Positions 15,969-54,918 of a DNA stretch of 64,000 bases are shown one piece after another. Source of the DNA: Streptomyces sp. WP-1. Lineage in GTDB: Bacteria; Actinomycetota; Actinomycetes; Streptomycetales; Streptomycetaceae. Within the stretch, counting starts at the first letter, position 1, and every line of letters starts with the position of its first letter. The stretch is taken from contig NZ_CP123923.1 of NCBI RefSeq assembly GCF_030450125.1, positions 434,001-498,000 on the forward strand, written 5' to 3'. The translations under genes were made by a program, and so were the position numbers. A model generated the notes under the pieces. That model had not been told where the DNA came from. It was given only the letters and a program-made list of their open reading frames with translations, and searched no databases.

Positions 15969-16066
15969 GGAGAGGTGCCCGGAGTGGTTGATCGGGGACC
16001 AACGAGCATGTCCCGAGGTCGGGCCTCCCGGGGCCCACGCAGGTTCAAATCCTGCCCTCTCCGCCA
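15969..16066 (+). ncRNA. serine-tRNA-like structured element, copy 1
   Basis: Acceptor stem GGAGAGG/CCTCTCC, discriminator G and encoded CCA; T arm GCAGG-TTCAAAT-CCTGC; D-like arm CCCG/CGGG; a 5-bp variable arm GGGCC/GGCCC with a 6-base loop. The place of the anticodon arm is taken by a longer GACC...GGTC hairpin enclosing CGAG-CATGT-CCCG, with no 7-base anticodon loop. The outer shell resembles type-II tRNA-Ser. It shares both leader and shell with copies at 20173 and 29585. It may be a tRNA-like regulatory RNA or a degenerate mobile tRNA copy. Confidence 0.6.
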
Positions 16067-29584: not shown

Positions 29585-29681
29585 GGAGAGGTGCCCGGAG
29601 TGGTTGATCGGGGACCGGCGAGCACGTCTCGAGGTCGGATCCGCAAGGGTCCACGCAGGTTCGAATCCTGCCCTCTCCGCA
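29585..29681 (+). ncRNA. serine-tRNA-like structured element, copy 3
   Basis: Acceptor GGAGAGG/CCTCTCC, T arm GCAGG-TTCGAAT-CCTGC, extended GACC...GGTC arm with perfect inner stem CGAG-CACGT-CTCG. The variable arm GGATC/GGTCC (loop CGCAAG) has changed at two positions relative to copies 1-2 while keeping all five pairs. The 3' end reads GCA instead of GCCA, so CCA is not fully encoded. The leader motif TTCATGTGAACGG is at 29544-29556, followed by a hairpin CCCGG-GAGA-CCGGG. A perfect terminator follows 3 bases later. Confidence 0.6.
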
Positions 29682-46803: not shown

Positions 46804-48129
46804 TCAGGTCTGGCGCATCGGCGCGTACTCCGCCTCCTCCAGGCCGAAGGTCCAGGCGACGCCCTCCCGTGCGGTGCGGGTGCGGGGCGGGACGCGGAGC
46901 CAGTAGGTGCGGTGGGTGCCGTCGGGTTCCGGGGTGGAGTTGACGACCTCGACCATCACCTGCGGCTCGTCGCCCTCCAGTTCGAGGCGCCAGAGCACGC
47001 CCGTCTCGTCCCGCTGGACCGGTGCGGCATCGGACTCCTTGAGGTAGCGGTCGTAGCCGTAGTGCTCCAGCATCACGCGGCGCAGTTCGGCGTTCTTCTC
47101 CTCGCGTATCCGCCGGGGCGTCAACTCGCTGAGGCCATCGAGGAATTCGGGCGGGACGGGCATGCCGCGCCAGGCGTACAGGGCGAAGCCGTCGGGGAAG
47201 GCGAGCGCGGGGCCGTCGCCCCGGTCGAGCCGGCCCGCCTCGTCCAGGTGGAGTTCCACGGGGCGCTCGCAGACGACCGCCGTCTTCTCGTACGGCCACC
47301 ACCAGCCCGCGGCGCGGGCCACCGCGGCGATCCCCGCGAGCCCCTCCGCGCCCTCCTGGCCGTCGAACGCCGCCAGCCACGCGGCGTCGTGCTGGCCCAG
47401 GACGGCGTCGAGGAGTGTCAGGCGGACGGCCTGCTCGGCGGCCGCCGCTTCCTTCGCCGCCTTCCTGGCATCGGCCGGGGTATCGGCCGTACCGTCCGAA
47501 GTGGCCGCGGTTCCGGCCAGTTCCTCGATCAGGCCGGTCCGTATCCGCTCGGTCAGCATCACCAGGCCGTCCCACAATTGAGCCCCGGTCAGGGCCCAGT
47601 GCCCGGCCCAGCCGTCCGGGCCCACCCGGTCGAGGAGGCGTCCGCGTGCGGTCGCCCACGGCCGGGTGCGTACCGCGTCGCGGACGCTGCGCCCGGCCGT
47701 GCCCTCCGCCGTCAGCCGCATGACCACAGCCGCGCCCGCGCGGGGCGAGTCCGCCCAGACGATGTTCTCCGGCTCGGGCAGACCCGCCAGCCGGTAGGCC
47801 AGGCACACGCCCTCCTCGGCGGCCGCGCGGTCCGCGGCACCGGTCGCCGAGGCCACCGCCCGCCAGGTGTGGGCCGTCTCCGCCGTGGCCACCGCGCCGT
47901 CCTCCATCGTCACCGCACCACTCCCGGTCGTCACCGCACCGCTCCCCGCCGTCACCGCACCGCTCCCGGTCATCACCACACCGCTCCCCACCGTCATCGT
48001 CTCCCCGGCTTCCCCGCCGACCGCACTCATCGATCCCTCGACTCCCCCGACAACCGCCGCCATGACAGCCCCGGTCCTCGCTCCGACCGCCACCACGGCT
48101 CCCCCTGCTTCCCCGCCGACCGCCGCCAT
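46804..48129 (-). CDS. DUF6745 domain protein of the STM401x-type locus
   Basis: 441 aa from ATG 48129 (GGGGG 5 bases upstream); GTG 48168 is an alternative. Residues 1-85 are Val/Ala/Gly-rich repeats. The conserved domain begins at ~TAHTWRAVASATGAADRAAA, includes LAYRLAGLPEPENIVWADSP, AAVARAAGWWWPYEKTAVVC, ERPVELHLDEAGRLDRGDGP, RIREEKNAELRRVMLEHYGY and KESDAAPVQRDETGVLWRLE, the DUF6745 pattern. The function is unknown. It is divergent from the leucine-rich/ATP-grasp/radical-SAM genes and shares a mirror-image promoter with them; candidate partner or substrate. Confidence 0.75.
   Translation of the reverse strand: MAAVGGEAGGAVVAVGARTGAVMAAVVGGVEGSMSAVGGEAGETMTVGSGVVMTGSGAVTAGSGAVTTGSGAVTMEDGAVATAETAHTWRAVASATGAADRAAAEEGVCLAYRLAGLPEPENIVWADSPRAGAAVVMRLTAEGTAGRSVRDAVRTRPWATARGRLLDRVGPDGWAGHWALTGAQLWDGLVMLTERIRTGLIEELAGTAATSDGTADTPADARKAAKEAAAAEQAVRLTLLDAVLGQHDAAWLAAFDGQEGAEGLAGIAAVARAAGWWWPYEKTAVVCERPVELHLDEAGRLDRGDGPALAFPDGFALYAWRGMPVPPEFLDGLSELTPRRIREEKNAELRRVMLEHYGYDRYLKESDAAPVQRDETGVLWRLELEGDEPQVMVEVVNSTPEPDGTHRTYWLRVPPRTRTAREGVAWTFGLEEAEYAPMRQT
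47911..47994 (-). repeat. four 21-bp coding repeats in DUF6745 N-terminus
   Basis: Four tandem 21-mers of the form CACCGCACCGCTCCCNGCCGT encode a heptad-like GSGAVTA/GSGAVTT repeat in front of the conserved domain. The expansion is local to this gene. Confidence 0.85.
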
Positions 48130-48185
48130 CGTTCCCCCGTCTTCCTGTTCCTCACCGACCGCCGTCACCGTCGCGCCCCGCCGTC

Positions 48186-48512
48186 TCAGTCCGCCACGAC
48201 GCGGACCGCGCCGGGTACGTACTCGCGCTGGCGCACCACGCGGTACCAGCCCTTGGGCAGCGGTATCGCCGCGTGTTCCTCGTGCACCACCCGTCCGCCG
48301 TCCGGGAGATGGAGGTAGGCGGTGCCGAACGGCCCGGTCTCGCGGACCAGGGTGCCGGGCCCGACCACGGCGTGCGCGTGGCCGGTGACCTCGCCGAGGG
48401 CCAGCACCAGCCGGCCCCGGGCGTCCCGCGGCTGGCGCGGCAGCCGGTCGGTGCCGGGCGGCACGGCCTCCTCCGCCACGGGCACGATCAGGACGTCTCC
48501 TTGCCGGTACAC
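48186..48512 (-). CDS. small conserved partner protein of DUF6745
   Basis: 108 aa, ATG 48512. The sequence starts MYRQGDVLIVPVAEEAVPPG and contains LVLALGEVTGHAHAVVGPGT and LHLPDGGRVVHEEHAAIPLPKGWYRVVRQREY. The H-A-H and E-E-H patterns could hold a metal. It lies next to the DUF6745 gene and both read leftward (48512 to 46804), so they likely form one operon; the combination recurs in other actinobacteria and cyanobacteria as far as I recall. No function is known. Confidence 0.75.
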   Translation of the reverse strand: MYRQGDVLIVPVAEEAVPPGTDRLPRQPRDARGRLVLALGEVTGHAHAVVGPGTLVRETGPFGTAYLHLPDGGRVVHEEHAAIPLPKGWYRVVRQREYVPGAVRVVAD

Positions 48513-48556
48513 AGGTGTCTCCCTTCCCCGTCGGCACCTCGCTGACCGATGACCAC

Positions 48557-48642
48557 GACGCTACGCGGGGGGTCTGACAACGGCCCCGCGAGCGGTTTCC
48601 CCACAGCCCGTCATCCGCGTTGTCAGTGCGGGTTGGTAGAAC
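48557..48642. promoter_or_regulatory. mirror-image TGTCAG-N10-TAG promoters (PafBC-like)
   Basis: CTGACAACG (48573-48581) and CGTTGTCAG (48618-48626) are perfect inverted copies. On each side the half-site TGTCAG is followed by exactly 10 bases and a -10: TAGAAC at 48637-48642 toward the leucine-rich gene, TAGCGT at 48562-48557 toward the 108-aa gene. The spacing fits the actinobacterial PafBC DNA-damage promoter (TGTCRGTG-N8-TANNNT); the rightward copy even has TGTCAGTG. The rightward -10 has C instead of the final T. Confidence 0.6.
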
Positions 48643-48687
48643 TCTTGCAACCACCGCACGATCACGGTCCCAGGAGGCCAGCGCGTC

Positions 48688-49638
48688 ATGTCGAACGTCG
48701 AGCATCTGAAGGAACTGCACGGCCTCCCGGCCTTCGAGTTCGAAACCGGGTCGAAGCGGGAGCTGCCGGAGGCGGGTGCCGTGGCGTGGCGGGTGGCCGT
48801 CGATCCGTACGGGGACTCGGACATCGCGTTCGAGGAACTGTGGGACAGCTTCCTCCAGACCGTGGATCCCGCAGGGATACGCGCGATCATCGTGGGCCCG
48901 TGGGGCGAGGCGTACGACAACGACTCCGAACTCATCGTGAACTGCCTCGTGAAGGACCGGGAGCGGCTGACCGGTCTGCGGGCCGTGTTCATCGGTGACC
49001 TGGAGATGGAGGAGGCGGAGATCTCCTGGATCGAGCAGTCCGACGTCACCCCGGTCCTCGCCGCCTATCCGCAGTTGGCGGAACTCGGGATCCGCGGCGG
49101 CACCGGGCTGCGCTTCCCGGCGGTGCGCCATGAGCACCTGCGCACGCTCCGGTTCGAGACCGGCGGTCTGCCCGGCGAGGTCGTGCGCGGTGTCGCCGGG
49201 AGTGAACTGCCCGCGCTGGCGCACCTCGACCTGTGGCTCGGCGTGTCGGAGTACGGCGGTGACGCGACGGTGGCCGACCTCGCCCCGTTCCTCGCCGGGG
49301 GCGGCTTCCCGGCGCTGCGCCATCTCGGTCTGCGCAACAGCGAGATCCAGGACGAGATCGCCGCCGCCGTCGCGAGCGCCCCGGTCGTCGCCCAGCTGAC
49401 CTCGCTCGACCTGTCCATGGGCGTGCTCACCGACGAGGGCATGGTCGCGCTGCTCGGCGGGCAGCCGCTCACCCATCTGACCAAGCTCGACCTGCACCAC
49501 AACTACGTCACCGAGGCGGTGGCCGAGCGGGTCCGGGCGGCGCTGGAGCCGTCCGGGGTCGAGGTCGACCTGTCCGAGCCGGGCGACACCTGGGAGCACG
49601 AGGGCGTCGTGCACCGCTACACCGCGGTCGCGGAGTGA
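48688..49638 (+). CDS. STM4015-family leucine-rich protein (first copy)
   Basis: 316 aa, ATG 48688 with AGGAGG 10 bases upstream. N-terminal domain HLKELHGLPAFEFETGSKRE then AWRVAVDPYGDSDIAFEELW, followed by ~6 leucine-rich repeat units in the second half (LAELGIRGG, LRTLRFETGGLPGEVVRGV, LAHLDLWLG, LRHLGLRNSEIQDEI, LTSLDLSMGVLTDEGM, LTKLDLHHNYVTEAV). Such LRR arcs usually bind proteins. Homologous to the second gene 8 bases downstream. It is the first gene of the six-gene STM4015-4011-type operon, whose biochemical role has not been worked out. Confidence 0.85.
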   Translation: MSNVEHLKELHGLPAFEFETGSKRELPEAGAVAWRVAVDPYGDSDIAFEELWDSFLQTVDPAGIRAIIVGPWGEAYDNDSELIVNCLVKDRERLTGLRAVFIGDLEMEEAEISWIEQSDVTPVLAAYPQLAELGIRGGTGLRFPAVRHEHLRTLRFETGGLPGEVVRGVAGSELPALAHLDLWLGVSEYGGDATVADLAPFLAGGGFPALRHLGLRNSEIQDEIAAAVASAPVVAQLTSLDLSMGVLTDEGMVALLGGQPLTHLTKLDLHHNYVTEAVAERVRAALEPSGVEVDLSEPGDTWEHEGVVHRYTAVAE

Positions 49639-49645
49639 GGCCGGC

Positions 49646-50611
49646 ATGACCTTCGCCGATCATTTCGAGACCTTTCACGGGCTGCCCGTCTTCACCCTGC
49701 CCGAGCCGGGCGAGGAGCCGCTTCCGGCCGCAAGCGACGTGGCCTGGCGGCTGGACTGCTTCGAGGCCGGGGACATTCCCTTCCCCGAGGTGTGGCAGAG
49801 CTTCACGGAGCGGGTGCCGAGCGCGCGGGTCCGGGCGCTCGTCATCGGGCCCTGGTGGGAGGACGAGTACAGCGAGCTGCGTCCGGTGCTGGAGCTGATC
49901 CTGGCCGACGCCGGGCGCTTCCCGGCGCTGCGCGCCCTGTTCCTCGCCGATGTCACCGGCGAGGAGTGCGAGATCTCCTGGCTCCAGCTCACCGACGTCA
50001 CCCCGGTCCTGGAGACCTTCCCGCTGCTGGAGGAACTGGGGGTGCGCGGCGGCGACTCGCAGGGGCTCGGCGAGGAGCCCCTGTCGCTGCGGCCCGTACG
50101 GCACGAGGCGCTGCGGGTGCTGCGGTTCGAGTCCGGCGGCCTGCCGGGGCAGGTGGTGCGGGCGGTCGGCGCCTGCGAACTGCCCGCCCTGGAGCGGCTG
50201 GAGCTGTGGCTCGGCGTGGCGACGTACGGCGGCGACGCGACGGTGGCCGACCTCGCGCCCGTCCTCGCCGGGGGCCGTTTCCCGGCGCTGCGCCATCTCG
50301 GCCTCCAGGACAGCGAGGTGCAGGACGAGATCGCGGCCGCGATCGCCGCCGCGCCCGTCGTGGCCCAGCTGGAGTCGCTGAACCTGTCCATGGGCATCCT
50401 CACCGACGCCGGCGGCGAGGCCCTGCTGCGCGGCCAGCCGCTCACCCACCTCAAGCGGCTCGACCTGCACCACCACTTCCTCGGCGACGCCGTCGCCGAG
50501 CGGATCAGGACGGCCGTCGGCTCCGCCGGGACCGACGTCGACCTGTCGGGGCGTCAGGAGCCGCGCCGGTGGCGGGACGAGGAGTGGCGTTATGTCGCCG
50601 TCTCCGAGTGA
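49646..50611 (+). CDS. STM4015-family leucine-rich protein (second copy)
   Basis: 321 aa, ATG 49646, only 7 bases after the preceding stop. A tandem paralogue with the same layout: FETFHGLPVFTLPEPGEEP, DVAWRLDCFEAGDIPFPEVW, DVTPVLETFPLLEELGVRGG, LRVLRFESGGLPGQVVRAV and the repeats LERLELWLGVATYGGDATV, LRHLGLQDSEVQDEIAAAI, LESLNLSMGILTDAGG. The last 20 bases overlap the ATP-grasp gene. Duplicated LRR proteins in one operon suggest two recognition specificities or a heterodimer. Confidence 0.85.
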   Translation: MTFADHFETFHGLPVFTLPEPGEEPLPAASDVAWRLDCFEAGDIPFPEVWQSFTERVPSARVRALVIGPWWEDEYSELRPVLELILADAGRFPALRALFLADVTGEECEISWLQLTDVTPVLETFPLLEELGVRGGDSQGLGEEPLSLRPVRHEALRVLRFESGGLPGQVVRAVGACELPALERLELWLGVATYGGDATVADLAPVLAGGRFPALRHLGLQDSEVQDEIAAAIAAAPVVAQLESLNLSMGILTDAGGEALLRGQPLTHLKRLDLHHHFLGDAVAERIRTAVGSAGTDVDLSGRQEPRRWRDEEWRYVAVSE

Positions 50612-51833
50612 GCCGTCGGTCGGCGCGGGCCTCCGGTTCGCCGTCGTCGGCAACCCCGAGAACCGCCGGACGACCATGTTCGCCGACGCCGTACGCGCCG
50701 CGGGACACCCTGCGCCGCGCGTGCTCGCCTGGCGGGACGTGCTGCGCGGCCGGTACGGCTTCGCGCCGGGCGAGCGGGTGCGGATCGACTCCCCCGGTGA
50801 GAACGCCGAGGTCGACCGGCTCCTGCGGGGCGTCGACGAGCCGACCCGGGTCGAGGGCACGGCGCTGTGGTACCGCCGTTTCACCTCCGTGGTAAGGGAG
50901 TTGACTCAGGCGGCGCGCCACGCGGGTGCGGTGCCGAGCGCGGACCCGCAGGAGATCGCCGTGATGTTCGACAAGCGGCGCTGCCATGCCCGGCTCGCCG
51001 CCGCCGGCGTCCCGGTACCGCCCGCGCTGACCGGCCCGTTCGACGGCTGGGGCGGGCTGCGGCGGCAGCTCAAGGAGGCCCGGTTCTCGCGGGTGTTCGT
51101 GAAGGCGGCGCACGGCTCGTCGGCCTCCGGTGTCGTGGCGCTGTCGGTGGCGGGCCCGGGGCGGGTCAAGGCGACGACGTCCGTGGAGCGGACCGAGGAC
51201 GGCCGGCTGTACAACTCGCTGCGGGTGCGGGACTACACCTCGGAGCGTGAGGTCGCCGCCCTGGTCGACGCGCTGGTCCCGGACGGGATCCATGTGGAGC
51301 GGTGGCTGCCGAAGGCCATGCGGGACGGCCGGGCGGCCGATCTGCGGGTGGTCGTGGTCGCGGGCCGTGCCACGCATGCCGTCGTACGGACCAGCCGGCA
51401 CCCCATGACCAATCTGCATCTCGGCGGCGCCCGGGGCGACCTGGACGCGGTCCGCGCGGCGATCCGGGCCGCGGGCGGCGACTTCGCCGAGGTCCTGGAG
51501 GTGGCCGAGCGGGCTGCCGCGTGCTTCCCGGGCACGCTCTGCGTCGGCGTGGACATCCTGCCGGCCACCGGATGGCGTCGCTTCACCGTCGGCGAGGTGA
51601 ACGCCTTCGGGGACCTGCTCCCCCGGCTGACCGGCCTCCCCGGCAGCGGCGCCGAGCACCTGGACACCTACGCCGCGCAGGTCGCCGCGGCCCGGACCGC
51701 CGTACGGCCGACGGAACAGGCCGGCCCCCGGCCCGAGCACGTCGTACAACCTCCGGAATCCGTCGTACGACCTCCCCATCACGTCGCTCGACGGCCGGAA
51801 CACGAGGAGCACCACCATGACATCCCCGCTTGA
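50592..51833 (+). CDS. STM4014-family ATP-grasp protein
   Basis: 413 aa, ATG 50592 overlapping the LRR gene by 20 bases. The N-terminal part LRFAVVGNPENRRTTMFADAV is a Rossmann-like preATP-grasp domain. The ATP-grasp core has MFDKRRCHARLAAAGVPVPP (subdomain entry), RFSRVFVKAAHGSSASGVVAL (ATP lysine), IHVERWLPKAMRDGRAADLRVVVVAG and GVDILPATGWRRFTVGEVNAFGDL (Mg/ATP acidic residues). The RimK-like arrangement suggests ligation of an amino acid or other carboxylate to a protein or peptide. Tail with EEHHHD. Part of the six-gene operon. Confidence 0.8.
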   Translation: MSPSPSEPSVGAGLRFAVVGNPENRRTTMFADAVRAAGHPAPRVLAWRDVLRGRYGFAPGERVRIDSPGENAEVDRLLRGVDEPTRVEGTALWYRRFTSVVRELTQAARHAGAVPSADPQEIAVMFDKRRCHARLAAAGVPVPPALTGPFDGWGGLRRQLKEARFSRVFVKAAHGSSASGVVALSVAGPGRVKATTSVERTEDGRLYNSLRVRDYTSEREVAALVDALVPDGIHVERWLPKAMRDGRAADLRVVVVAGRATHAVVRTSRHPMTNLHLGGARGDLDAVRAAIRAAGGDFAEVLEVAERAAACFPGTLCVGVDILPATGWRRFTVGEVNAFGDLLPRLTGLPGSGAEHLDTYAAQVAAARTAVRPTEQAGPRPEHVVQPPESVVRPPHHVARRPEHEEHHHDIPA

Positions 51834-52641
51834 CATGACCGAGATCGTGGGCAGCCACGATCTGCTGCTGGTCACGCTGGACACCCTGCGCTACGACGTC
51901 GCGCAGGAGCTGGCGGCGGCCGGGCGCATCCCGCATCTGGCCCGGCATCTGCCGGGCGGTGTGTGGGAGCGGCGGCACGCGCCGGGCAGTTTCACCTACG
52001 CCTCCCATCAGGCGATGTTCGCGGGTTTCCTGCCGACGCCGGCCACGCCGGGTCCGCACCCGCGGCTGTTCGCCGCCCGTTTCGCGGGCAGTGAGAGCAC
52101 CGCTACGGGCACCTTCGTCTACGACACCCCCGACCTGGTGACGGGACTGGCCGCCGTGGGCTATCGCACGGTGTGCATCGGCGGGGTGGGCTTCTTCAAC
52201 AAGCAGGGCCCGCTCGGCTCGGTGCTGCCCGGGATGTTCCAGGAGAGCCACTGGGAGCCGGAGTTCGGGGTGGCTTCCCCCACCTCGTTCGAGGCCCAGG
52301 TGGCGTGCGCCGAGAAGGTCGTCGCCGGTCTCCCCGCGGACCAGCCGCTGTTCCTGTTCGTGAACGTGGCGGCGCTGCACCAGCCCAACTGGTTCCATCT
52401 GCCCGGCGCCACCAAGGAGGCGGGCGACACCCGGGAGTCCCACGCGGCGGCCCTGGAGTACGTGGACCGGCACATGGGCCGCCTCCTGGCCGCCGCCTCC
52501 GCGCGCCGCCCGTGCCTCGCGATCGTCTGCTCCGACCACGGCACCGCGTACGGCGAGGACGGCTACACGGGCCACCGCATCGGCCATGACGTCGTCTGGA
52601 CCGTCCCCTACGCCCACTTCTTCGTCGACGAGGCCCGATGA
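51817..52641 (+). CDS. STM4013/SEN3800-family metallohydrolase
   Basis: 274 aa, ATG 51817 overlapping the ATP-grasp stop. Alkaline-phosphatase superfamily: metal Asp and nucleophile region HDLLLVTLDTLRYDVAQELA, the GSFTYASHQAMFAGFLPTPA segment and the second metal site CSDHGTAYGEDGYTGHRIGHDVVWTVPYAHFF. It resembles sulfatase/phosphodiesterase-type hydrolases but is much shorter. The reading frame then overlaps the next radical-SAM gene by 4 bases. The role within the system is unknown; possible cleavage of a modified ester or anhydride. Confidence 0.82.
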   Translation: MTSPLDMTEIVGSHDLLLVTLDTLRYDVAQELAAAGRIPHLARHLPGGVWERRHAPGSFTYASHQAMFAGFLPTPATPGPHPRLFAARFAGSESTATGTFVYDTPDLVTGLAAVGYRTVCIGGVGFFNKQGPLGSVLPGMFQESHWEPEFGVASPTSFEAQVACAEKVVAGLPADQPLFLFVNVAALHQPNWFHLPGATKEAGDTRESHAAALEYVDRHMGRLLAAASARRPCLAIVCSDHGTAYGEDGYTGHRIGHDVVWTVPYAHFFVDEAR

Positions 52642-53996
52642 CCAGCGCCATCGCGACGGCCACCGCCGTCCGCCCGTACCAGCAGTACGTCTACGCCTAT
52701 CCGCACAAGACCGCCTACCGCCCGCTGCCCCGTGCGCGGGCGTCGCTGCGCGATCTGTGGGCGGACGAACCGAAGGGCGCGCTGTCGCTCTACTTCCACA
52801 TCCCGTTCTGCGAGGTGCGCTGCGGTTTCTGCAACCTCTTCACCCGGATCGGCGCGCCGGACGGCCTGACCGGTGCCTATCTGGACGCGCTGGAGCGGCA
52901 GGCGTCGGCGGTGCGCGAGGCGCTGGGCGAGGGGGCGCGGTTCGCGAACGCGGCCTTCGGCGGCGGCACTCCGACGTTCCTGGAGGCGGCGGAGCTGGAG
53001 CGGCTGTGCGATCTGGCCGAGCACGGACTGGGCGCCGATCTGACCGCGATCCCGCTGTCCATGGAGGCCTCGCCCGCCACCGCGACGGCCGACCGGCTGG
53101 CGGTGCTGGCCGAGCGGGGCATAACCCGGCTGAGCCTGGGCGTGCAGAGCTTCGTGGACGCGGAGGCGCGCACCGCCGTACGGCCGCAGCGGCGGGCGGA
53201 CGTGGAGGCGGCCCTCGCCCGGGTCCGCGACGTGGCGATCCCCGTCCTGAACATCGACCTGATCTACGGCATCGACGGCCAGACCGAGGAGTCCTTCACC
53301 CGTTCCCTGGACGCGGCCCTCGCCTGGCGGCCGGAGGAGCTGTATCTGTATCCCCTCTACGTGCGCCCGCTGACCGGTCTCGGCCGGCAGCGCGAGCGCG
53401 CGGTGTCGGCGGACGCCGAGTGGGACGAGCAGCGGCTGCGGCTGTACCGGCACGGCCGCGACCATCTGCTCGCGCACGGCTACGAGCAGGTGTCGATGCG
53501 CATGTTCCGCCGCGCGGACGCCCCGGACACCGGTGCGGGCGACTACGCGTGCCAGACGGACGGCATGGTCGGTCTCGGCTGCGGCGCGCGGTCGTACACC
53601 TCCCGGCTGCACTACTCGTTCGACTACGCGGTGGACATGCACCGCATACGCGGGATCATCGACACGTACACCGCCCGCTCCACCGACGGCTTCCGGCACG
53701 CGGACTTCGGCTGGGAGATGACCGGGGACGAGGCGCGCCGCCGTCATCTGCTCCAGTCGCTGCTCCAGGCCGAGGGCATGCCGGTGGCCGGGTACCGGGA
53801 GCGGTTCGGCAGCGCGCCCGGCGAGGACTTCGCGGCCGAACTGGACCGGTTCGCCGAGCGGGGCTGGCTGGACGGTTCGGCGGGCCCCGGGCTGCTGCGG
53901 CTGAGCCCCGAGGGGCTGGCGCACTCGGACGCGGTGGGTCCCGAGCTGTTCTCCGCCGCCGTGCGGGCGCGGATGGCCGCGTACGAGGTGAAGTGA
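52638..53996 (+). CDS. STM4012-family radical SAM protein (HemW-like)
   Basis: 452 aa, ATG 52638. Radical-SAM [4Fe-4S] motif CEVRCGFC (Cys58, 62, 65) in LSLYFHIPFCEVRCGFCNLF, followed by GGGTPTFL and the barrel strands ITRLSLGVQSFVDAEARTAV and LNIDLIYGIDGQTEESF, as in coproporphyrinogen dehydrogenase-like HemW. The C-terminal HemN-type winged region is ~380-452. HemW relatives bind heme or act as methyltransferases; the function of the STM4012 group is unestablished. Confidence 0.88.
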   Translation: MTSAIATATAVRPYQQYVYAYPHKTAYRPLPRARASLRDLWADEPKGALSLYFHIPFCEVRCGFCNLFTRIGAPDGLTGAYLDALERQASAVREALGEGARFANAAFGGGTPTFLEAAELERLCDLAEHGLGADLTAIPLSMEASPATATADRLAVLAERGITRLSLGVQSFVDAEARTAVRPQRRADVEAALARVRDVAIPVLNIDLIYGIDGQTEESFTRSLDAALAWRPEELYLYPLYVRPLTGLGRQRERAVSADAEWDEQRLRLYRHGRDHLLAHGYEQVSMRMFRRADAPDTGAGDYACQTDGMVGLGCGARSYTSRLHYSFDYAVDMHRIRGIIDTYTARSTDGFRHADFGWEMTGDEARRRHLLQSLLQAEGMPVAGYRERFGSAPGEDFAAELDRFAERGWLDGSAGPGLLRLSPEGLAHSDAVGPELFSAAVRARMAAYEVK

Positions 53997-54006
53997 CGGT
54001 GCGCGC

Positions 54007-54918
54007 ATGGATCTGACGATTCTCTACCGGGGCCCGCTGGCGTCGTGCGACTACGACTGCCCGTACTGCCCGTTCGCCAAGCGGCGCGACAGCCGCGCCC
54101 AGCTGTCCGCCGACCGTGCCGCGTTGGAGCGGTTCGCCGACTGGGTGGCCGCGCAGGAAGGCGACCGGCTCTCGCTGCTGTTCACCCCGTGGGGTGAGGG
54201 CCTGGTGCGGTCCTGGTACCGGCGGGCGCTCGTGGAGCTGAGCCGGTTGCCGCACATCCGCAGGGTGGCGATCCAGACCAACCTCAGCTGCCGCACCGAC
54301 TGGCTCGCGGCCGCCGACCTGGACACGCTCGCGCTGTGGTGCACGTACCACCCGGGGCAGACGCCGTACGACCGTTTCCTCGCCAAGTGCCATGACCTGG
54401 CGGACCGAGGGGTCCGGCACAGTGTCGGCGTGGTCGGCCTGCCCGAGCATCTGGAGCACGCCCGGCGGTTGCGCGCCGAGCTGCCCGAGCAGGTCTATCT
54501 CTGGGTCAACGCCGCCGAGGGGCACACCTACACCGACGGCGAGGCCGACGCTTGGACCGCGCTGGACCCGCTCTTCCCGTACAGCCGCCACCCGCACCGC
54601 AGCGCGGGCCTGCCCTGCCGTACCGGGGAGTCGGTCATATCGGTGGACGGCGAGGGCACGGTGCGCCGCTGCCACTTCGTCCGCGCCGAGCTGGGAAACC
54701 TGTACGACGGCTCGTATCGGGACGCGCTGCGGCCCCGCGCCTGTCCGCTCGCGGTCTGCGACTGCCACATCGGCTATGTCCACCTGGAGACGCTGCCGCT
54801 GTACGACGTTTTCGCGGGCGGGGTGCTGGAGCGGATACCGGCGCCGGGTCCCGGCCGGGGCCCGGTCGGGGGTGGTCGAGGCCGCACCGTCGTCGGAATG
54901 CCGTCGCCACCGCCATGA
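54007..54918 (+). CDS. STM4011-family radical SAM protein
   Basis: 303 aa, ATG 54007, 10 bases after the preceding stop. Cluster motif CDYDCPYC (Cys14, 18, 21) at the very N-terminus. The barrel motif TPWGEGLVRSWYRRALVELS follows, then ALWCTYHPGQTPYDRF. A C-terminal Cys cluster CRTGE...CHFV...CPLAVCDCHIGYVHLE could ligate an auxiliary iron-sulfur site (SPASM/twitch-like). Such enzymes often install thioethers or epimers in peptides. It is the last gene of the operon. Tail PGRGPVGGGRGRTVVG is disordered. Confidence 0.87.
   Translation: MDLTILYRGPLASCDYDCPYCPFAKRRDSRAQLSADRAALERFADWVAAQEGDRLSLLFTPWGEGLVRSWYRRALVELSRLPHIRRVAIQTNLSCRTDWLAAADLDTLALWCTYHPGQTPYDRFLAKCHDLADRGVRHSVGVVGLPEHLEHARRLRAELPEQVYLWVNAAEGHTYTDGEADAWTALDPLFPYSRHPHRSAGLPCRTGESVISVDGEGTVRRCHFVRAELGNLYDGSYRDALRPRACPLAVCDCHIGYVHLETLPLYDVFAGGVLERIPAPGPGRGPVGGGRGRTVVGMPSPPP

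Follow-up and report, generated by a model that had tools for sequence, protein, structure and literature searches.

A cluster of six genes in Streptomyces sp. WP-1 may encode a protein modification system directed at a C-terminal glutamate. The genes lie on the plus strand (48688-54918) of a 64-kb window, the whole stretch of DNA that was analysed from the 7.6-Mb genome of this strain, and encode two leucine-rich repeat (LRR) proteins of the STM4015 family, A and B, followed by STM4014, STM4013, STM4012 and STM4011; diverging from them on the minus strand is a pair made of a DUF6745 gene and a gene for a protein of 108 amino acids (Table 1). In the reading that we prefer, the LRR proteins would serve as acceptors, STM4014 would carry out a ligation, and a group built by the radical and phospho enzymes would be retained on the LRR protein. 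We put the probability of this full statement at roughly 0.47, because retention of the group is less sure than modification of the Glu. That the terminal Glu of the LRR proteins is modified is, by itself, the best-supported inference, and we hold it to be somewhat better than an even bet.

We named the genes by NCBIfam and Pfam matches that exceed the curated cut-offs, and all six plus-strand proteins pass those of their NCBIfam families (NF038073, NF006067, NF038075, NF038074 and NF038076). All eight genes lie where a first-pass annotation of the same DNA had placed them. That annotation had called the six genes tightly overlapping; neighbours overlap, by 20, 17 and 4 bases, at three of the five plus-strand junctions, with gaps of 7 and 10 bases at the other two. 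It had also taken the cluster to be fused to the DUF6745 operon, a misreading of two separate, divergent operons. Within the intergenic region between them no match to a sigma-70-like consensus was found. Its description of A and B as leucine-rich is borne out, in the sense of an LRR fold, by matches to ribonuclease inhibitor LRRs and to 2ra8 (profile expectation value (E) 7.8e-78), a solved relative of STM4015 that is called uncharacterized.

To compare the cluster across bacteria, we scanned genome contigs with an STM4011 alignment and collected 80 loci (L036-L115), whose record titles point to about eleven phyla. STM4015 proteins end in Glu in 105 of 107 complete frames, in 92 of the 94 proteins from the 80 genome loci plus the window, and in all of the best 120 of 3,403 homologues, which are all close relatives. 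The typical acidic tail reads R-[YF]-x-A-V-[SGA]-E-COOH, with many Asp and Glu residues before it. Counted from the end (n=107), Arg occupies position -7 in 79 proteins; position -6 is Tyr in 74, Phe in 21 and another residue in 12; Ala is found at -4 in 78, Val at -3 in 78, Ser, Gly or Ala at -2 in 97, and Glu at -1 in 105. Among 89 aligned proteins the entropy of the terminal Glu is 0.09 bits, compared with 2.16 bits as the median of the 307 columns. Some Leu and Gly positions of the LRR core match or exceed the Glu in constancy, four core columns being more constant, and the aromatic position at -6 varies. The last residue of STM4011 to STM4014 is not constant in the 80 loci plus the window. 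Two altered STM4015 ends were seen (L050:2701-3684 and L093:5606-6568), one extending four residues past the tail and one in a broken frame.

The tail is also exclusive to these proteins. Besides the STM4015 genes these loci hold 13,534 open frames, and none of them has the strict form. When the corresponding DNA pattern (R-[YF]-x-A-V-x-E-stop) was searched in the WP-1 genome, it matched only the two LRR genes, and in 14 other genomes it gave 19 matches, 18 of them LRR C-termini and one an 11-codon frame; the reversed control gave none in either search. The LRR proteins as a whole are strongly acidic (median -8.5 per 100 amino acids), and 21 of the 107 carry an N-terminal WGR domain (found by Pfam in seven of nine tested) while all 21 keep the Glu.

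The number of LRR genes ranges from two to six in 20 of 66 loci, and STM4014 is never present more than once. In Actinomadura rifamycini (L113:1000-6741) six tandem STM4015 genes accompany a single enzyme set. The Glu tail, the swapped N-termini and the multiplied LRR genes therefore suggest the behaviour of a substrate family and not of a recognition subunit. LRR and STM4014 genes adjoin on the same strand, less than 200 bp apart, in 61 of 63 loci, the other two distances being 213 and 225 bp. STM4014 and STM4011 lie on opposite strands in 15 of 65 loci. Eight loci had no STM4014 in the fetched stretch, and a whole-genome search found it elsewhere in seven of them. In all six genomes examined in which STM4014 lies beyond the fetched stretch, its neighbour is an LRR gene with the tail; three of these are Myxococcus, at more than 10 kb, and in L087, L099 and L104 the pair is on another contig, possibly owing to contig ends. 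This pairing, and its separation from the remaining genes, therefore indicates two units, one of LRR plus ATP-grasp and one of STM4013-STM4012-STM4011. In the first-pass annotation the LRR proteins were recognisers of a target such as DUF6745; the C-terminal Glu, the tandem copies beside one enzyme set and the pairing with the ligase favour the opposite role, and to us these proteins look like substrates.

A profile built from 34 STM4014 proteins found LysX (1uc8, E 1.8e-6) and RimK (E 1e-4) as best solved relatives, the next being at 0.005. LysX and RimK ligate amino acids onto the C-terminus of proteins. According to an extract of PMC10092738, RimK extends ribosomal protein S6 (RpsF) by Glu at its C-terminus, and in the Pseudomonas enzyme the last Glu is contacted by R189 and N262 and ADP by S212 and N213. 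Provided that this numbering equals that of Escherichia coli RimK, the four residues R189, N262, S212 and N213 align with R252, N337, T273 and N274 of STM4014, all invariant in the 34 proteins, which supports, without proving, a ligase reaction of STM4014.

The other enzymes are of kinds that could make or elaborate a group. STM4012 matches HutW (1.2e-39) and HemN (5e-37) in NCBIfam. STM4011 carries a SPASM-like Cys motif in 80 of 81 proteins, and its C-terminal part matches SkfB (6efn, E 4e-4). None of the 73 STM4013 proteins has the signature of sulfatases ([CS]-x-[PA]-x-R, then [TS]-G), and 72 of the 73 contain F-T-x(2-3)-H-x-A-x(3)-G, in which Thr60 is invariant in 31 aligned sequences. 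In a profile match Thr60 aligns with the S-x-T stretch of the nucleotide pyrophosphatase NPP 2gsn, whose aligned Thr we take to be the nucleophile. Lacking the sulfatase signature and having Thr60 in this position, STM4013 is therefore read as a probable phospho-enzyme. Directly 5' of STM4013 a HAD phosphatase gene is found in 15 of 80 loci (Pfam HAD_2 in three of three tested), in Myxococcota, Bacteroidota, Planctomycetota, Verrucomicrobiota, one metagenome-assembled genome (MAG) titled 'bacterium', and L051. The L051 record, titled Comamonas sp., carries a Myxococcus-type cluster arrangement and is possibly mislabelled. A conserved gene set of the modification type, as the first-pass annotation had proposed, is supported.

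Starting from what can be read in the sequences, namely family membership, the conservation and exclusivity of the tail, the LRR plus ATP-grasp unit, one enzyme set beside several LRR genes and the linkage to DUF6745, we infer the attachment site, the order of steps, the retention of the group and the chemistry and role of each component as follows. The STM4015 proteins would be acceptors through the last Glu of the acidic tail, which STM4014, a ligase of RimK/LysX type, would activate and join to an amine-bearing group. STM4012 (HemN-type) and STM4011 (SPASM-type) would make or elaborate this group, helped by STM4013 as a Thr-nucleophile phosphotransferase or phosphodiesterase, at some loci perhaps with the upstream HAD phosphatase. 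Most likely the group would stay on the LRR protein, whose LRR part (WGR plus LRR in some phyla) would carry it to a partner, and DUF6745 with its His-rich companion would form an optional module using, sensing or regulating the modified protein. A further step, that the ATP-grasp ligase, the two radical SAM enzymes and the phospho-enzyme build an undescribed prosthetic group on the C-terminal Glu of dedicated LRR or WGR-LRR proteins, representing a new class of protein-bound cofactor or signalling mark, with DUF6745 and the His-rich protein as its optional reader module, is doubtful.

Several points weigh against this scheme. L071 (Cytophagales) has STM4011 to STM4013, and a whole-genome search did not find STM4014 there. 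LysX and RimK are matched remotely, over short stretches of 32 to 92 of the 379 profile positions, and the residues shared with RimK (R252, T273, N274, N337) are common in ATP-grasp ligases at large. Near-constant ends are found as well in DUF6745 (32 of 33 with Thr) and in the small protein (Asp in all 32), so that a constant end does not by itself mark a substrate. The strict tail is present in just 76 of the 107 STM4015 proteins, a planctomycete subgroup ending in GDWE, GDYE or GDIE, and a constant C-terminus could serve as a recognition tag only. At the planctomycete loci L047 and L054, both the LRR proteins, which have such ends, and STM4014 are diverged, which may mean that the tail changes along with the ligase.

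The alternative that holds up best makes the LRR protein a sacrificial, reusable amino-group carrier like LysW: STM4014 would load its C-terminal Glu with an amino compound, which the radical and phospho enzymes would convert in tethered form before a small molecule was cut off. The acceptor residue would be the same as in LysW, the ligase is related to LysX, and a phosphodiesterase-type enzyme with a HAD phosphatase would suit small-molecule steps. Carrier enzymes use charge contacts with acidic residues, according to part of PMC9303977, and the LRR proteins are acidic; a reference title in the same paper indicates that amino-group carrier pathways yield secondary metabolites in Streptomyces. 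Against a carrier, the neighbour families common to at least four groups of loci (ORFs of 80 amino acids or more within 5 kb) included no recognisable peptidase or exporter, though a peptidase could lie elsewhere; LysW, in the excerpted account, ends at residue 54, as opposed to about 280-560 amino acids, sometimes with WGR, in the LRR proteins; and several different LRR genes per cluster would be odd for a carrier. We consider a carrier unlikely, if far from negligible.

A second alternative resembles the ribosomally synthesized and post-translationally modified peptides: the radical S-adenosylmethionine (SAM) enzymes would modify residues within the tail, and Glu would be part of a recognition motif or form a graspetide-like link. 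The SPASM-type STM4011 with its Cys motif and SkfB match speaks for it, as does the frequency of ATP-grasp plus SPASM enzymes in graspetide loci (an extract of PMC8939145). The precursor would, however, have to be a whole LRR protein, and only the last Glu of the tail is near-invariant, the aromatic residue at -6 being replaceable. These points make it improbable.

The first-pass annotation had itself cast the LRR proteins as recognising, and the enzymes as modifying, a target such as DUF6745 or a small peptide, with a possible role in stress or defence; we take the target here to be DUF6745 or its partner. The link between DUF6745 and the cluster is real and was formed in several arrangements, yet DUF6745 is an optional accessory. 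Among 150 Streptomyces genomes, in which a cluster type (357 bits or more) and a solo type (90-108 bits) of DUF6745 were distinguished, 72 have STM4011 (three partial); the cluster type occurs in 57, all within those 72, leaving 15 with STM4011 only and 78 with neither, and none of the 78 without STM4011 has it (Fisher 9.5e-28). The solo type is separate and occurs in seven, including G372, where both types are present. Of 61 relatives (DUF6745 at E below 1e-80, STM4014 over cut-off) 20 have both, three STM4014 only, two DUF6745 only and 36 neither (Fisher 6e-11). Both DUF6745-only cases are accounted for by the data, since a contig edge falls inside STM4014 in one (G028) and a fragment of STM4011 is retained beside DUF6745 in the other (G039). 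The co-occurrence with the cluster on which the annotation had staked its proposal is thus found, as is co-location. The five-family set itself is patchy, as STM4011 is over cut-off in just six of 246 sampled genomes of the phylum.

Across phyla, no DUF6745 match is present in 32 of 62 complete clusters, counting one cut by its contig (L107) and one with a short weak match (L081, E 2e-6), and whole-genome searches in 16 cases where the fetched locus had none found none in any of the 16; DUF6745 is therefore optional. Where it occurs, in 32 genome loci, it lies downstream and opposite to STM4011 in 14, upstream and opposite in eight, downstream in the same direction in seven and upstream in the same direction in three. 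In plasmid records the DUF6745 pair is upstream and divergent in S. fungicidicus and S. cadmiisoli, upstream and co-directional in Methylobacterium, downstream and convergent in three Deinococcus, and absent beside the clusters of Paenibacillus and Salmonella. DUF6745 and the small gene occur together in 31 of the 33 loci, out of 80, that hold either; the exceptions are L091, with DUF6745 only, and the contig-cut L107, with the small gene only. Pairs outside any cluster were seen in Skermanella, D. ficus and four actinomycete loci. At the D. ficus locus (L032:8117-13605), which has no STM cluster, genes for a VWA protein and for a member of the glutathionylspermidine-synthase family come after those of the small protein and DUF6745; in D. 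taeanensis, too, there is a VWA gene, upstream of the cluster.

For DUF6745 as the target one can thus cite the strict link in Streptomyces, all four orientations relative to STM4011 and the near-constant terminal Thr; about half of the complete clusters and all 16 genomes searched in full do without it, pairs exist away from clusters, and DUF6745 has Ala as its last residue in three Deinococcus clusters, so that its end is less constrained than that of the LRR proteins. Concerning defence, PADLOC searches with the eight window proteins matched STM4012 to the candidate PDC-M51A (1.1e-8, residues 157-254 only) and DUF6745 to Cas6 (E 0.004), with nothing else up to E 0.01, one match thus being partial and the other weak. 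A pattern scan of viral contigs returned one STM4014 relative. A gene for a RecQ helicase/phosphoribosyltransferase resembling PsyrT, a defence toxin family in PADLOC, lies less than 5 kb from the cluster in seven of 80 loci, five of them Actinomadura, the hosts being Actinomadura, an Anaerolineae MAG and Serratia (L113:14025-16178, L038:2128-4194 and L065:1373-3589; similar frames in L086, L098, L102 and L112). Four RecQ-type neighbours were compared with PADLOC: three, from three of these seven loci, had PsyrT as best match, and one (L061) is an ordinary RecQ. The window has no PsyrT-like neighbour. A connection of the cluster with defence islands is possible on this one weak hint, which leaves the odds of the readings unchanged because it concerns seven of 80 loci and not the window. 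Altogether we regard DUF6745 or its partner as a very improbable target. That STM4013 is a sulfatase matured by STM4011, as a SPASM radical SAM gene beside a sulfatase-fold protein might suggest, is hardly credible in view of the missing signature and the different motif of STM4013.

The records that contain the cluster come from Actinomycetota, Chloroflexota, Planctomycetota, Myxococcota, Bacteroidota, Verrucomicrobiota, Acidobacteriota, Cyanobacteriota, Armatimonadota, Deinococcota, Bacillota and Pseudomonadota. We assigned phyla from record titles; Bacillota enters via a plasmid record, and the Armatimonadota contig holds only STM4011 and part of STM4012. All five families lie within the fetched stretch in 62 of the 80 loci. 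Neighbouring open reading frames (ORFs) of 80 amino acids or more were collected within 5 kb, and families common to at least four groups of loci were retained; besides the HAD phosphatases these were ABC-transporter ATPases, without a fixed place, and the RecQ-type helicases. A precursor peptide of the graspetide kind shorter than 80 amino acids would escape this collection. A lone STM4013-like protein (47% identity) is encoded on an S. albidoflavus plasmid (L027:9004-9798), where the other four families are absent and a NUDIX hydrolase and a lasso peptide B2 protein are near; STM4013 alone is also found in L035 (Kitasatospora). A second use of STM4013, as at L027, is possible.

Table 1. Features of the two divergent operons, in window coordinates (pLDDT, predicted local distance difference test)
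Feature	Position	Strand	Evidence or remark
DUF6745 protein, c. 367 amino acids	46804..47907	-	Pfam PF20530 E 1.7e-115; homologue lengths; AlphaFold model mean pLDDT 88
108-amino-acid partner	48186..48512	-	alignment of 32; model mean pLDDT 89; 1,764 relatives at E<=1e-3
Divergent intergenic region between both operons, 175 bp	48513..48687	.	coordinates
STM4015 family LRR protein A	48688..49638	+	NF038076 E 6e-119, 396 bits
C-terminal tail codons of LRR protein A, HRYTAVAE + stop	49612..49638	+	
STM4015 family LRR protein B	49646..50611	+	NF038076 E 6e-113, 377 bits
C-terminal tail codons of LRR protein B, WRYVAVSE + stop	50585..50611	+	overlaps STM4014 start
STM4014 family ATP-grasp, putative LysX/RimK-related ligase	50592..51833	+	NF038074 E 3e-136, 454 bits; profile matches 1uc8, 3vpd, 5zct, 4iwx
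STM4013/SEN3800, alkaline-phosphatase/sulfatase superfamily, Thr60 in nucleophile position	51817..52641	+	NF038075 E 1e-128, 428 bits
STM4012 radical SAM enzyme, HemN/HemW/HutW superfamily	52638..53996	+	NF006067 E 9e-192, 638 bits
STM4011 radical SAM enzyme, SPASM-like C-terminal Cys cluster	54007..54918	+	NF038073 E 2e-127, 424 bits

PF20530 covers the final 207 residues of the minus-strand frame that ends at 46804. A mechanical ORF of 947 amino acids around DUF6745 was rejected as an open-frame artefact, the homologues listed spanning 329-434 amino acids. The start codon of DUF6745 is uncertain, near 47907 by homologue length or further upstream, because a GC-rich minisatellite between the small gene and DUF6745 (47890-48145; units of 21, 33 and 42 bp) runs in its frame. 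In the AlphaFold model the protein has a helical N-terminal part and the DUF6745 domain at its C-terminus. Cluster-linked DUF6745 proteins outside Actinomycetota have LRR-like N-termini, with a profile match to the LRRs of plant nucleotide-binding LRR proteins. The N-terminal domain is thus swapped among the 80 loci, being helical in Actinomycetota and in a Nostoc copy and LRR-like otherwise outside Actinomycetota. The 108-amino-acid ORF has no NCBIfam match at E 0.01 and no Pfam match at E 0.1. His45, His47, His77, Glu79, His80 and the C-terminal Asp are invariant in its alignment, and the model shows an all-beta domain, in which the invariant His and Glu residues may form a metal site. No confident fold match was obtained for this protein, for which a cupin fold was considered, or for the DUF6745 protein. 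Elsewhere in the window, two tRNA-like predictions with a four-base anticodon (cgag) were noted at 15969-16066 and 29585-29680.

The proposal would turn five families that have only Salmonella locus numbers into one testable system, with a named substrate, residue and first reaction, and because the hypothesis comes down to one residue, the terminal Glu, a mass measurement could decide it. If true, the modification would be widespread, as the records cover about a dozen bacterial phyla. In the literature searched we found no description of the modification of the C-terminal residue of an LRR protein.

Among known systems, Pearlin is built with a PEARL ligase that is unrelated to ATP-grasp enzymes. 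As in our proposal its scaffold is ribosomal and C-terminally extended, and a radical SAM methyltransferase is among the keywords of PMC9303977; unlike here, the ligase is reported to be tRNA-dependent, and the scaffold is a small peptide. Graspetide loci, according to part of PMC8939145, likewise combine ATP-grasp with SPASM enzymes, whereas the acceptor here would be a whole LRR protein and nothing points to a short core peptide with ester or amide rings. LysW/LysX and ArgW/ArgX come close in that LysX is the best solved relative of STM4014 and the acceptor is acidic and has its terminal Glu as part of a short motif, which in LysW is EDWGE (excerpt of PMC10433800). They differ in that LysW is a Zn-binding protein of 54 amino acids, while the acceptor here would be a large LRR or WGR-LRR protein with an RYxAVxE tail, accompanied by two radical SAM enzymes and an alkaline-phosphatase-superfamily enzyme, with no release peptidase recognised nearby. 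RimK/RpsF shares the ligase relation (5zct, 4iwx) and a C-terminal modification that stays on the protein, but the target here would be a dedicated LRR protein encoded beside its ligase, with radical SAM and alkaline-phosphatase-superfamily partners as regular companions. If the proposal is right, C-terminal ligation of the RimK/LysX type would reach large repeat proteins, beyond the small carrier and the ribosomal protein of the known systems.

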